Source of the DNA: Acidobacteriota bacterium
GTDB taxonomy: Bacteria; Acidobacteriota; Thermoanaerobaculia; Multivoradales; JBCCEF01
Direction of reading: 5' to 3'
Assembly (NCBI GenBank): GCA_039028635.1
Contig: JBCCHV010000057.1
Location: forward strand, 1-45,604
Length of the DNA stretch: 45,604 nt
Shown here: in pieces, positions 3,438-34,554 of the stretch
Layout of the letters: the number at the start of each line of letters is the position of its first letter
Position numbering within the stretch: position 1 is the first letter of the stretch
The notes under the pieces: generated by a model
The model's input: the letters and a program-made list of their open reading frames with translations, nothing else
Database searches by the model: none
Told to the model about the DNA's origin: nothing
Program-made: the position numbers and the translations under genes

Positions 3438-4117
3438 GCCCGCGAGTCCTGATCGTCGAGGACGACGAAGCCATGGCCGTCGCGCTGCGCGATGGCTTCG
3501 AGTACGAAGGCTATGAAGTGATCGCCGCCACCGACGGCGAGGCCGGCCTCACCGCCGCTCGGGAGCGTGCTCCGGCACTGATCGTCCTCGACGTCATGCT
3601 GCCGCGCATGACCGGCCTCGATGTCTGCAAGGAGCTGCGCCGCGGCGGCGACTCGGTGCCGATCATCATGCTGACGGCGCGCGGCCAGGAGATCGACAAG
3701 ATCCTCGGCCTCAAGCTCGGGGCCGACGACTACATCACCAAGCCCTTCAGTTTTCTCGAGCTGTTCGCCCGCGCCGAGGCGGTGCTGCGACGCACCTCCG
3801 GCCACTCCCCCGGCGCCGCCATCGCGCGCTTCGGCGACGTCACCATCGACTTCCGGCGCCACGAGGCGACCAAAGGCGACCAGTCCCTCGAGCTCTCACC
3901 GCGCGAATTCCATCTCCTCGAGTACTTCGTCGCCCACCGCGGCGAAGTCATCTCCCGCGATCGCCTGCTCGACGCCGTCTGGGGCTACGACTCCATCCCT
4001 TACACCCGCACCGTCGACACCCACATCGCCAAACTGCGCAAGAAGATCGAAGACACGCCATCGGACCCGAAGTGGCTGGTGACCATCCACCGCCTGGGCT
4101 ACAAATTCACCGGCTAA
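3434..4117 (+). CDS. OmpR/PhoB-family response regulator
   Basis: This 227-aa two-domain regulator has a receiver domain with acidic pair Asp10/Asp11, phospho-acceptor Asp53 (VLDVMLP), Thr81 and Lys103 (ITKPF). A C-terminal winged-helix DNA-binding domain follows, with [20 protein letters not shown] and the recognition-helix region [16 protein letters not shown]. It starts inside the stop of the kinase gene (ATGA) behind a GGAGGAG SD, so the two are translationally coupled and form a cognate pair. Targets are unknown; the inverted/direct repeat at 1713-1735 upstream of its own operon is a candidate autoregulatory site. Confidence 0.93.
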
Positions 4118-4146
4118 GGGCCCGGCGACGCACCTGTCGCGCCCGA

Positions 4147-4695
4147 GCCGCGTAGGCGGGGGGGCGCCTTTAGCCCCGAAGTCCCTGTCGGCAGAATGAA
4201 GCCGTCGGCTACAAAGCAGCGGGCCCCCGAGCGCGCAAGCGCGAGGCGGCGGCAAAGCCGCCGAGGACGAGGCCGCCCTGGATTGGGGTGAGGCCGCACG
4301 ACACGTGCGTGCGGCCCGGGCCGCGTAGATTACGTGAGCGCCTTTAGCCCCGAAGCACCTATCTTTCGGCAGAAAGAAGCCGTCTGCTAACCAGCAGACG
4401 GCCCCCGAGCCCGATCAGGGCGAGGGCAGCGGCCTCTGGCCGCTGAGGACGGGGGTGCCTGGCCGGCCGCGAGCCGCACGACATGTGCGTGCGGCTCGGG
4501 CCGCGTAGGCGAGGGGGGCGCCTTTAGCCCCGAAGTTCCTGTCGGCAGAAAGCAGGCGTCTGCTAACCAGCAGACGGCCCCCGAGCGCGGAAGCGCGAGG
4601 GCAGCGGCGAAAGCCGCTGAGGACGGGGCCGCCCTGGATTGGGGTGAAGCCGCACGACATGTGCGTGCGGCTGAGGGGGGCGCCTTTAGCCCCCC
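4147..4695. repeat. Three-unit tandem repeat of hairpin-rich noncoding DNA
   Basis: The 582-bp gap between the convergent regulator and sulfatase-like genes is filled by three degenerate units starting at GCCGCGTAG (4147, 4320, 4500; 173 and 180 bp apart), plus a closing half-unit. The core GCCTTTAGCCCC recurs at 4166, 4340, 4520 and 4682. Each unit contains nested hairpins: a GCCGTCTGCT/AGCAGACGGC type (perfect at 4379-4402), a CAGCGGC/GCCGCTG type, and GCCGCAC/GTGCGGC around ACATGT (best at 4648-4672). The last hairpin, GGGGGGC/GCCCCCC (4675-4695), may end the minus-strand transcript. The small open frames here are repeat by-products. It is not a CRISPR array: there are no short identical repeats with unique spacers. 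Confidence 0.85.
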
Positions 4696-4699
4696 TGAA

Positions 4700-6262
4700 T
4701 CAGAGATACCCGAGGGACTTCAGGAGGTCGCGGGTCTCGCCCTGCATCGAGCGCTCGTCGCCGCAGGCGCCGCCAATCTCGTCGATCTCGGCGTTGTAGC
4801 GGTCGGCTCCGTTCCAGGCCGACAGCAGGCGCTGCAGGCGCTCGAGGGCTTGCGGGTTCTCCTCCGCGACATTGCGCGTTTCCTCGGGATCGGCCTGCAG
4901 GTCGAAGAGGGTGAAGCGCACCCCTTCTCCACCGATCCAGCGCTGCTCCGGCCGGGTCTGGGCGAAGATCAGCTTGTGGCGCTCGTCGCGCACGATCTTC
5001 TGCCACTTGTTCTTGGTCTCCCAGCCGGCCTCCGAGTAGGCCACCGTATCCGCCGGCGCGGCTTCGCCGAGGAGCCGCGGGGTCAGACTCGCCCCCTGGT
5101 TCCAGCGCCCCTCGTCGAGGCCGATGCCGGCGGCTTCGAGAAGGGTCGGCGAGAGATGGATCAGCTCGACCGGTGCCTCGTCGACGCGCGGCTCGAGGAC
5201 TCCCGGATAGTGCACGATGAAGGGCACCCGCACACAGGTCTGAAAGCCGAAGCGGCCGTGGTCGAAGTAGTAGCGATGCTCGCCCAGGGATTCGCCGTGA
5301 TCCGAGGTGAAGACGGTCAGCGTGCGCTCGCGCAGGCGACGCTCGTCGAGAGCCTCCAGGAGGTGGCCGATCTGGGCGTCGTTATAGGCGATCTCAGCGT
5401 CGTAGCGGGCGACATAGAAGGCCAGATCGTCGCGACCATCGATCACCTGATCGCGACCGATACCGGTCATCTGTTGACGCGGCTTGTCGGCGATGTTGAT
5501 CTTGACCGTGTCGTCGAAGAACTCGTCGTTCTGGAAGCGATCCCGCCATTCGCCGGGAGCGCCATAGGGGGCGTGAGGATCGAGATAGTGGACCCAGAGG
5601 AAGTAGGGCTCGTCGCTGTCGGCGATCTGATCGAGCAGGCCGATGGCGAGGTTGGTGACCGCCTCGGCGGTATTGGGATCGTGGTCGGGGTCGTTGGACT
5701 CGAGCTTCCAGGTCTCGATGTAGGTATCGAAGCCCTGGTCGAAGTAGAAATCGCTCGCCAGAGCGGCATTCGCCACCACCGCATGGGTCTGGTAGCCGGC
5801 GCGCTGCAGGCGCTCCGCCAGCATTTCGAAGCGGCACGGCAGCGGCTGACCGATGCGGCGCACGATGCCGTTGTCCTTGGGATAGATGGCGGTGAACATC
5901 GAGGCCATCGAGGGCCCCGTTTTCGGCCACTGCACGGCGGGCTGGTCGAAACGCACCCCTTCCGCCGCCAGCTGGTCGATCACCGGCGAGGTCTGCCGTT
6001 CATAGCCGTAGGCCGAGAGATGGTCGGCGCGCAGCGTATCGACGGTGATCAGCAGGATGTTGCTGCGCGGCGGCAGCGGCGGCTCACCACAGCCGGCCAG
6101 GAAGACGAGGAGCGGGAGCAGGGCGGACAGACGGCCGAGAGTCGACTTGATCAATTGCAGCGTGCCGTGGTTCGGAATCTTCGTGATGCGCGCCCGCCGG
6201 GCCGATCCGGCTCGCCGAGCGCACGATGGCTGGCAACCGATTCTAGCAGCCGAATGCGTCAT
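4700..6262 (-). CDS. Sulfatase-like lipoprotein of the alkaline-phosphatase superfamily (Thr in nucleophile position)
   Basis: This 520-aa protein has an unusually long basic N terminus, a hydrophobic segment and the lipobox LAGC (Cys58), so it is probably a lipoprotein. The catalytic domain shows NILLITVDTLRADH (metal Asp75), HYLDPHAPY and TSDHGESLGEH. The position that is Cys/Ser in formylglycine sulfatases is Thr115 (TGPSMASMFT), and the usual Arg is Met. Family members of this sort are annotated as sulfatase, but the substrate is unknown. It ends exactly at SLGYL, where its two paralogues in the window continue into TPR repeats. It starts one base after the recQ stop behind GGAAGG; a later start nearer the signal segment is possible. 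Confidence 0.82.
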   Translation of the reverse strand: MTHSAARIGCQPSCARRAGSARRARITKIPNHGTLQLIKSTLGRLSALLPLLVFLAGCGEPPLPPRSNILLITVDTLRADHLSAYGYERQTSPVIDQLAAEGVRFDQPAVQWPKTGPSMASMFTAIYPKDNGIVRRIGQPLPCRFEMLAERLQRAGYQTHAVVANAALASDFYFDQGFDTYIETWKLESNDPDHDPNTAEAVTNLAIGLLDQIADSDEPYFLWVHYLDPHAPYGAPGEWRDRFQNDEFFDDTVKINIADKPRQQMTGIGRDQVIDGRDDLAFYVARYDAEIAYNDAQIGHLLEALDERRLRERTLTVFTSDHGESLGEHRYYFDHGRFGFQTCVRVPFIVHYPGVLEPRVDEAPVELIHLSPTLLEAAGIGLDEGRWNQGASLTPRLLGEAAPADTVAYSEAGWETKNKWQKIVRDERHKLIFAQTRPEQRWIGGEGVRFTLFDLQADPEETRNVAEENPQALERLQRLLSAWNGADRYNAEIDEIGGACGDERSMQGETRDLLKSLGYL

Positions 6263-32565: not shown

Positions 32566-34362
32566 GTGGAAAACGTACGCAACTTCTGCATCATTGCCCA
32601 TATCGACCACGGCAAGTCGACCCTCGCGGATCGCCTGATCCAGCGCTGCGGCGGCGTCGCCGAGCGCGAGTTCCGGGACCAGATCCTCGACTCGATGGAT
32701 CTCGAGCGCGAGCGGGGCATCACCATCAAGAGCAACACGGTCACCCTCAGCTACCGCGCCCAGGACGGCGAGGAGTACATCCTCAACCTGATCGACACGC
32801 CGGGCCACGTCGACTTCTCGCACGAGGTGCGCCGCTCGTTGATGTCCTGCGAGGGCGCGCTGCTGCTGGTGGACGCCTCTCAAGGGGTCGAGGCCCAGAC
32901 CGTCGCCAACCTCTATCTCGCCCTCGAGTACGACCTCGAGCTGGCGCCGGTGATCAACAAGATCGATCTGCCGTCGGCGGACATCGACCGGGTCAACGAA
33001 GAGATCGCCGAAGACCTCGGTCTCGATCCCTTCGAGGCCGCCCACGCTTCGGCCAAGACCGGCCAGGGCATCGACGATGTGCTGGAGACCATCGTCCGTC
33101 AGCTACCGGCTCCCAAGGGGCAGGTCGACTCCCCCCTCCAGGCCCTGATCTTCGACGCCCAGTACGACGCCTATCGCGGCGTGGTGATGCTGGTGCGGGT
33201 CAAGGAAGGCACGCTGCGCCCAGGGGCCACCATCCGACTGATGCACACCGAGAAGAGCTACGAGGTCGAGGAGGTCGGCCTGCTCAAGCTCAAGCGGGTC
33301 AAGACCAAGGAGCTGACGGCGGGCTCCGTCGGCTACGTCATCGCCGGCATCAAGACCGTCCGGGACATCGCCATCGGCGACACCATCACGGACGAGCAGA
33401 ACCCCGCCGCGGAGCCGCTGCCGGGCTACAAGGAGGCCAAGCCGGTGGTCTTCTCGTCGATCTACCCGATGTCGACGGACGATTACGAGGACCTCGGTCG
33501 GGCCCTCGACAAGCTGGCCCTCAACGATGCCGCCCTGACCTACGAGAAGGATTCCTCGAGCGCCCTCGGCTTCGGCTATCGCTGTGGCTTCCTCGGCCTG
33601 CTCCATCTCGACGTCGTCCAGGAACGGCTGCATCGCGAGTACGACCTCGCCCTGCTGCTCTCGGCACCCTCCGTGGAGTACCACCTGACCCTCGAGAACG
33701 GCGAGTTTCACCGCATCGACAACCCGGCCCTCTATCCCGACCCGACCAGCATTCAGCGCGCCGAGGAACCTTTCATCAAGGCTTCGATCATGATGCCCGA
33801 GCGCTACGTCGGCGCGGTCATGGAGCTCTGCCGCGAGCGTCGGGGCGAGAACACCACCTTCTCCTATCTCTCGGTGGGTCGCGTCGAGCTGACCTCGGAG
33901 CTGCCCCTCGGCGAAGTGATGTTCGACTTCTACGACCGCCTGAAGACGGTCACCCAGGGTTACGGCTCCTTCGACTACGAGATCATCGGCTACCGCGAAG
34001 CGCGGCTGGTCAAGGTCGACATCCTGGTCAATGGCGAGCCGGTCGATGCCCTCTCCCAGCTGGTCCACGAGGAGAAGGCCCGAGGCCGGGCCCTGCGCTA
34101 CTGCGAAAAGCTCGCCGAGACCATCCCGCGACAACAGTTCAAGATCGCCATCCAGGGCGCCATCGGTGGCAAGGTGATCGCCCGTACCACCATCAATGCC
34201 TACCGCAAGGACGTCACCGCCAAGTGCTACGGCGGCGACATCAGCCGTAAGCGCAAGCTGCTCGAGAAGCAGAAGGAAGGCAAGAAGCGGATGAAGATGG
34301 TGGGCGCCGTCGAAATCCCCCAGTCGGCCTTCGTGGCAGTGCTCAAGAGCGACGACAACTAG
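32566..34362 (+). CDS. lepA: Translation elongation factor 4 (LepA)
   Basis: This 598-aa protein matches LepA length (599 in E. coli). The GTPase domain shows AHIDHGKST (G1), RERGITIKS, DTPGHVDFS (G3) and NKIDLPSAD (G4). Domains II and III and the LepA-specific C-terminal domain follow, with RKRKLLEKQKEGKKRMKM and the ending VEIPQSAFVAVLK. It binds ribosomes and promotes back-translocation or remodelling under stress. The start is GTG at 32566 with GAGG seven nt upstream. A TAGGAT box at 32498-32503 is a possible -10. The TAG stop lies inside the left inverted repeat of a mobile-looking element. Confidence 0.97.
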   Translation: MENVRNFCIIAHIDHGKSTLADRLIQRCGGVAEREFRDQILDSMDLERERGITIKSNTVTLSYRAQDGEEYILNLIDTPGHVDFSHEVRRSLMSCEGALLLVDASQGVEAQTVANLYLALEYDLELAPVINKIDLPSADIDRVNEEIAEDLGLDPFEAAHASAKTGQGIDDVLETIVRQLPAPKGQVDSPLQALIFDAQYDAYRGVVMLVRVKEGTLRPGATIRLMHTEKSYEVEEVGLLKLKRVKTKELTAGSVGYVIAGIKTVRDIAIGDTITDEQNPAAEPLPGYKEAKPVVFSSIYPMSTDDYEDLGRALDKLALNDAALTYEKDSSSALGFGYRCGFLGLLHLDVVQERLHREYDLALLLSAPSVEYHLTLENGEFHRIDNPALYPDPTSIQRAEEPFIKASIMMPERYVGAVMELCRERRGENTTFSYLSVGRVELTSELPLGEVMFDFYDRLKTVTQGYGSFDYEIIGYREARLVKVDILVNGEPVDALSQLVHEEKARGRALRYCEKLAETIPRQQFKIAIQGAIGGKVIARTTINAYRKDVTAKCYGGDISRKRKLLEKQKEGKKRMKMVGAVEIPQSAFVAVLKSDDN

Positions 34363-34554
34363 CCGGCTGCTGAAGAAGTCCGCTTTGCGATTTTTCCCGC
34401 TGCCAGCTGGTTCTTCCGAGAGGGGCTACGCGCCCCTCTCCGGTCCACGAAACGGGGTTCTGGGACCTCCTCTCCCATCGCGGCGGCGAGGCCGCCGCCG
34501 GGCCCTTCCGGGCCCGGAAGCAGGTTGCCGATGAGTTTTTCAGCAACCTGCTAG
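34359..34554. repeat. MITE-like element with terminal inverted repeats (copy 1)
   Basis: This 196-bp element begins CTAGCCGGCTGCTGAAGAA and ends with the inverse of CTAGCAGGTTGCTGAAAAA; the two ends match at 16 of 19 positions. It contains internal hairpins, GAGAGGGGC/GCCCCTCTC (34418-34440) and GGGCCC/GGGCCC near 34505. It has no coding capacity and abuts the lepA stop. It matches the element at 45018-45235 at both ends and in the GGGCCC hairpin. It may also end lepA transcription. Confidence 0.75.

Follow-up and report, generated by a model that had tools for sequence, protein, structure and literature searches.

A CTAG-associated family of short hairpin elements, probably IS5-type MITEs, and a tandem array of its inner module in an Acidobacteriota genome

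Bacterial MITEs such as RUP, NEMIS/Correia and ERIC are short, non-coding sequences with inverted ends and hairpins, present as many intergenic copies, and the family of elements described here is like them in each of these respects. One account ties RUP to IS630-Spn1 through its ends, reports that ERIC RNA destabilizes upstream transcripts and proposes that NEMIS RNA is handled by RNase III (PMC2229807). A second class of repeat, the GTAG-tagged REPs of the RAYT and TIRYT systems, is described as consisting of palindromes that lie at the 3' ends of genes, in convergent and unidirectional gaps, and often provide the TAG stop of ORFs (PMC3733652); the association of a repeat with stop codons is thus a known phenomenon for another repeat class, and our elements resemble these REPs in location and in the stop codon. 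Tandem repetition inside a MITE, a further point of likeness, is mentioned for Porphyromonas gingivalis in the form of an internal minisatellite (PMC4596501). The target duplication reported for IS5 is YTAR (PMC10359306).

The window (the whole stretch of 45,604 nucleotides that was analyzed) contains an array that fills the gap between the convergent genes of a response regulator, which ends at 4117 on the forward strand, and a sulfatase, whose stop codon occupies 4700-4702 on the reverse strand. A preliminary description made from the letters alone had placed a three-unit tandem repeat of nested hairpins between convergent genes here, and the later analysis bears out both the repeat and its setting: TRF reports a tandem repeat at 4147-4672 with a period of 176, 3.0 copies, 77% matches and 5% indels, and the core GCGCCTTTAGCCCC occurs four times (at 4164, 4338, 4518 and 4680), spaced by 174, 180 and 162. 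The order of hairpins in each unit also agrees with that description, and the stretch folds better than 100 of 100 shuffles on both strands (z of -7.4 and -5.8). A further claim, that stems stay paired in units 2 and 3 despite changes in unit 1, survives in part. Two stems are altered on both sides with pairing kept: the CGCG stem, where unit 2 has GCCC/GGGC in place of GCGC/GCGC, and the AGCGGC stem, where the G-C of unit 1 is A-T in the other two units. The GTCTGCT stem, by contrast, is simply decaying in unit 1, with 7 of 10 pairs there against 10 of 10 in unit 2 and 9 of 10 in unit 3. In the hairpin numbering used below, H2 and H3 carry both-sided changes with pairing kept across the three window units, and H1 of unit 1 has decayed. 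A scan for the end sequence of the family gave no terminal-repeat match in the array itself; profile matches lie inside it at 4216-4310 and 4563-4704, and a covariance model recovers the inner module in all three units (Table 1).

Table 1. Elements, array units and inner modules located in the window
Feature	Position	Strand	Evidence
Tandem array of three inner-module units, without CTAGCAGG terminal repeats	4141..4696	+	TRF, repeat families, no end match, profile matches
Unit 1, from leading core to next core, first stem decayed	4164..4337	+	Repeat and stem comparison
Unit 2	4338..4517	+	Repeat and stem comparison
Unit 3, closed by the fourth core (4680-4693)	4518..4696	+	Repeat and stem comparison
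Inner module H2-H5 of unit 1	4226..4318	+	Covariance-model match, E 2.7e-6
Inner module of unit 2, partial match	4404..4460	+	Covariance model, E 1.5e-4
Inner module of unit 3	4580..4696	+	Covariance model, E 2.4e-8
Complete element, inverted ends on both sides, immediately following lepA	34359..34554	-	End scan, profile E 2.3e-40, covariance model
TAG of the element's CTAG end, serving as the lepA stop codon (lepA 32566-34362)	34360..34362	+	Gene calls
Complete element, inverted ends on both sides, flanked by divergent called genes and not at a stop codon	45018..45235	-	End scan, profile E 1.6e-45, covariance model

The array belongs to a large dispersed family. A 202-bp unit has 54 matches in the source genome, and the core, one mismatch being allowed, is found there 94 times against 2 for the reversed pattern. 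Reading around the core copies revealed a second conserved sequence, CTAGCAGGCTGCTGAAAA, which is the element end and occurs 329 times in the source genome with up to three mismatches, against 1 in the control. Complete elements carry it inverted at both sides, mostly about 190-215 bp apart, each end consisting of CTAG followed by the imperfect inverted repeat CAGGYTGCTGAAAA; complete members thus measure about 190-215 bp and hold six hairpins between inverted ends CTAGCAGGYTGCTGAAAA. They are short and densely packed with hairpins, and no gene was called within the elements of the window. Tandem arrangement recurs as well: among 81 sequences (80 loci selected because they hold the core or the unit, plus the window), 16 have same-strand core or mid-hairpin marks 120-240 bp apart, two of these being doubtful (a pair without an adjoining core at L128 and marks on another hairpin at L070), and a looser count of 41 arrays includes chance pairs and was not used. 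The window array is one of several tandem arrays in the family. Some draft contigs (for example contigs 22, 34, 37 and 90 of the source genome, with the core in their first 50 bases) begin or end inside elements, which probably break the draft assembly.

Read on the forward strand, an element consists of a left hairpin, an inner module of four hairpins (H2-H3-H4-H5), a short tail and a right hairpin with A and T runs. H2 pairs GAGCCC with GGGC(GAG or CTC), H3 is built around GGCGSC with GSCGCC, H4 joins GCCCGAAAA with TTTTCGGGC or GCCGCAC with GTGCGGC and is followed by GA, and H5 has the form GGGGGCGCC..AGCCCCC. The GGGGTGA between H3 and H4 is highly conserved; the window element at 34359 has GAGAGGA instead. 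By eye, GA often stands on both sides of H2 and H4, where tandem G-A pairs are possible, and in H2 GA..GA alternates with a fully paired GAG..CTC. In the sister species the right hairpin (about 50 bp; L200, L212, L226 and others) varies widely in sequence between copies while its long stem is still paired.

The inner module is kept as a structure. A profile built from 46 seed elements, minus 3 of ambiguous orientation, gave 118 near-full matches, of which 67 from the two species were aligned (A1); RNAalifold predicts 22 pairs in these, 15 of them changed on both sides. Counted on this structure, 96.4% of cells are paired and 133 show a double change; the figure for shuffled alignments is 35.1, none of 500 reaching 133, and sliding the partners gives no more than 42. 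The structure was derived from the same alignment and the copies are related, so that the shuffle figure is not a probability. Further alignments comprise 46 of the 67 rows (A2, leaving out 21) and 20 of those left-out rows together with 6 from G016/G023 (A3). Paired columns contain G-U 46 times and A-C 19 times (p 0.001, the cells not being independent), or in 16 against 11 column pairs; in the source genome alone the counts are 9 and 4, which is not significant. This excess leans towards selection on RNA of the forward strand. Rfam gave no match in the whole window at the gathering score, and at six loci with E up to 1 only two tRNAs. In consensus scans, intrinsic terminators, defined as a GC-rich hairpin plus T run, numbered 0 against 0.5 in shuffles and 1 against 0.4, nothing above shuffles and no support for a simple terminator; the right hairpin does, by eye, have an inner GC stem plus a T run.

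Ends with up to one mismatch were counted across 72 genomes of the order, with 230 in the source genome, 40 in the sister species and one match each in two others. The covariance model of the inner module, with 58 candidates scored per genome, matched 4 of the 72: the source and sister genomes with at least 58 each and, in another family, two genomes with 6 and 4 matches. Three copies viewed in each of the latter have the same order of parts; the primary sequence and terminal hairpins differ from those of the source and sister species, and some copies have ends like CAGGG.GCTGAAGAA with a stop codon beside the right side. In these genomes the palindrome adjoining the module (L239, L243) seems, by eye, to include the neighbor's last codons or stop codon in its stem or loop. 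Across the phylum (396 genomes) matches were confined to the two original species, in a search that scored 10 candidates per genome and whose negatives are therefore weak. DNA similarity searches of two complete elements against plasmids and of a window unit against phages returned no match.

Between the two species, the positions of the elements differ. Best protein hits matched 72 adjacent gene pairs, of which 8 hold an element only in the source genome, 11 only in the sister species, none in both and 53 in neither. At two loci (L156/L226 and L171/L202) the empty allele is a single CTAG serving as the neighbor's stop and the filled allele is CTAG-element-CTAG; in several other pairs TGA, and not CTAG, closes the empty allele, the stop differing between the species. 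The insertion polymorphism is one between species, among dispersed copies (329 ends), with none at common positions in the 72 pairs. The preliminary description had hinted at selection on structure or recent amplification of a mobile unit, and at the level of the family both are supported: the former by strong compensatory change across copies and by the same architecture in a third genus, the latter by many dispersed copies at positions not common to two species of one genus. The three window units alone would not show either, and the absence of other copies and of covariation that would have spoken against the idea is not what the genome search and stem analysis found.

Elements lie preferentially at gene 3' ends. 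With genes called by a simple codon-usage caller (88% coding; 361 TGA, 177 TAG and 32 TAA stops in 40 stretches, which were chosen for containing elements, so that densities are not genome averages), 44 of 100 classifiable element loci found by the profile in the source genome lie between convergent genes, compared with 84 of 590 pairs in the background (p 6e-13; of 139 loci, 39 edge cases dropped), and 23 of 68 against 90 of 600 in the sister species (p 1e-4; 72 loci, 3 edge and 1 in-gene dropped). Divergent gaps hold 6 of the 100 (p 0.008) and 5 of the 68 (p 0.12). End clusters fall inside a called gene in 3 of 52 cases in the source genome and 5 of 63 in the sister species. A gene 3' end lies no more than 10 bp from the element 3' end in 51 of 63 cases in the source genome and 45 of 52 in the sister species, the corresponding figures for the element 5' end being 25 of 63 and 8 of 29. 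At unidirectional genes, orientation is even in the source genome (22 sense, 22 antisense) and skewed in the sister species (9 sense, 32 antisense; p 4e-4).

The ends of the elements also coincide with stop codons: the TAG of a CTAG end is the neighbor's stop at 33 of 63 gene 3' sides in the source genome and at 31 of 71 in the sister species. CTAG occurs at one-sixth of the frequency expected from base composition (384 against 2314 in source-genome stretches) and, outside elements, falls in genes, at stop codons and in other intergenic positions 84, 68 and 112 times in the source genome and 239, 88 and 162 times in the sister species. It stands at 140 of 188 source-genome ends, with another YTAR at 5, and at 52 of 80 sister ends, with another YTAR at 3. 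Identical 4-mers flank 34 of 49 source-genome end pairs (33 of them CTAG/CTAG), and 15 of the 49, as well as 2 of 6 sister pairs, are without them; because CTAG is palindromic, a duplication looks the same as part of the element end. YTAR carries a TAR stop on both strands. Duplication of YTAR at a stop would leave the protein intact, so that such copies could persist, and since CTAGs also occur in genes, selection against gene disruption must presumably act as well. Persistence through intact proteins may thus be the reason for the coincidence.

A likely mover was met in viral contigs, in which a scan for the end sequence gave 14 loci. At one of these (L272), two facing ends 1.3 kb apart, with CTAG on both sides, enclose a 365-aa transposase that matches NCBIfam IS5_4 at 291 bits (cut-off 140) together with Pfam DUF772 and DDE_Tnp_1, and this complete insertion sequence has the same 19-nt start as the elements. 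Five of the 14 loci, two of them on a single contig, have an end that runs into the start of an IS5_4-type transposase, and many others reach the limit of the stretch. Plasmid relatives numbered at least 15 among the matches listed (1714 records); the seven examined, from Bradyrhizobium, Skermanella, Azospirillum (including ISAzs10) and Novosphingobium, have ends close to CAGG.TGC.GAAAAA, and six have identical 4-bp flanks (TTAG, CTAA, TTAG, CTAA, CTAT and TTAG), the seventh CTAG/TTAG. The link to IS5 that these data suggest is drawn from ends and target only. In the source genome, Pfam found no IS5_4-type transposase and one DDE_Tnp_1 gene, of the IS4 family; tblastn of 1.99 Mb of fetched stretches of both species gave no transposase match below E 2.9; no Y1, DDE_Tnp_1, DDE_Tnp_1_6 or DDE_3 gene of the source genome was found with these ends; and where a transposase was sought between facing ends 0.6-4.5 kb apart in fetched stretches, the enclosed genes look ordinary by eye. 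DDE_Tnp_1 and DDE_Tnp_1_6 (searched in the source genome) and DDE_3 (searched in the source and sister genomes) were rejected as local partners, the search having yielded one IS4-family copy, itself inside an element. This insertion sequence (L235, contig 54, match 33030-33647) interrupts the H5 hairpin of an element that directly follows the TAG stop codon of a gene which, by eye, resembles that of an efflux pump.

We regard the family as probably an IS5-type MITE, non-autonomous and moved in trans at CTAG, with a possible target duplication and a putative cognate transposase, and the window array as, with comparable likelihood, a tandem run of its inner module that has come without terminal repeats. 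An IS5-family transposase (NCBIfam IS5_4, ISAzs10-like group) would recognize the element ends in trans, a step proposed from sequence comparison, and the element would be inserted at CTAG with CTAG left on both sides; as CTAG is rare and often a stop, insertions at gene ends would leave the protein intact and persist. In the window array the terminal repeats would then have been lost and the inner module copied in tandem, probably by recombination or slippage; since the ends are missing from the array, any mobility of its own would be conjectural. A different mover is conceivable, in which the terminal hairpins are REP-like palindromes tagged (C)TAG, moved as single-stranded DNA in the manner of REPs or REPINs by a RAYT or TIRYT tyrosine transposase. 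Y1_Tnp genes are present (2 in the source genome, 4 in the sister species, one a weak REP_Tyr_transpos match below the cut-off), GTAG REPs often give TAG stops, and the GGGGTGA(G) of the inner module fits the GGGGWSAS that is common to the TIRs of some TIRYT genes (PMC3733652). Yet facing element ends flank not one of the six Y1_Tnp loci, where the only matches are weak, partial and scattered; there is no excess of GGGGWSAS beside these genes and no inverted repeat holding it; L229 has a different 17-nt flanking repeat; and the element ends match a DDE-type IS5 element instead, so that we think this route unlikely. Near three of the six loci (L229-L234, both species) stand GGTGGCACC repeats, and the 17-nt inverted repeat of L229 holds GTGGCAC; these are perhaps a separate REP-like family.

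The MITE reading must also be set against further explanations. Hairpins acting as a functional RNA or terminator, inherited vertically and often lost, would account for the covariation, the G-U over A-C excess on the forward strand (46 to 19), the 3' location with its convergent bias and the same architecture in another family; they would leave unexplained why 0 of 19 occupied positions are common to the two species, whose compared neighbors are mostly 60-90% identical, and why conserved inverted ends are common to the elements and an insertion sequence, and we hold this to be less likely again than the tyrosine-transposase route. That the tandem units arose from collapsed or misjoined repeats in a 117-contig draft, some of whose contigs begin or end in elements, is highly improbable, given that the three units differ by many substitutions and that tandem units occur at other loci too. 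Within the IS5-type MITE reading, as a first guess prompted by the 3' location and convergent bias, the inner module would most likely serve as a hairpin barrier at gene 3' ends, a stabilizer or insulator; by analogy with the ERIC and NEMIS reports, an effect of the element at the RNA level is a reasonable expectation. Nearly as likely, the hairpins would meet a structural need of the element alone (folding while it transposes, or protection against read-through transcription) and have no part in host functions: a real possibility, consistent with an arrangement kept in both gene orientations in the source genome, against which stands the module's persistence and multiplication in arrays without ends, as in the window. 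A bolder and rather doubtful proposal is that H2-H5 form an undescribed structured RNA carried on IS5-type mobile ends, selected on one strand (the G-U excess), present in two families of the order, mostly antisense at sister gene 3' ends (32 against 9) and acting on transcript ends; window-type arrays would then be amplified RNA cargo without mobile ends.

If our preferred reading holds, the IS5-type MITE family suggests a simple route by which a mobile element could fill a dense genome with little damage, through a rare target tetranucleotide with a stop on both strands. A bacterial MITE with measurable inner covariation and a likely parent IS family would also make the role of MITE hairpins at gene ends testable. 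No publication describing the family was found in searches of the open-licence PMC literature, and it departs from each of its closest described counterparts. The IS5_4 and ISAzs10-like insertion sequences have the same ends (CTAGCAGGYTGCTGAAAA in L272) and, in relatives, YTAR-type 4-bp flanks, but theirs are about 1.3 kb long with a transposase, whereas the element, which carries a conserved hairpin module, is about 200 bp and non-coding and shows a narrower target choice than the plasmid relatives, being flanked almost only by CTAG. RUP uses TA-ended targets and IS630 in place of CTAG and IS5-type ends, and the stop-codon coincidence, the several covarying hairpins and the tandem arrays of the inner module set the family apart from RUP, NEMIS/Correia and ERIC alike. 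GTAG-tagged REPs measure 20-40 bp and have GTAG unpaired at one end, in contrast to about 200 bp with CTAG at both ends, and, unlike in the RAYT and TIRYT systems, no tyrosine transposase lies beside the repeats. Unlike the P. gingivalis MITE with its internal minisatellite, the present family repeats the hairpin module of 150-180 bp as a whole, with the terminal repeats lost.
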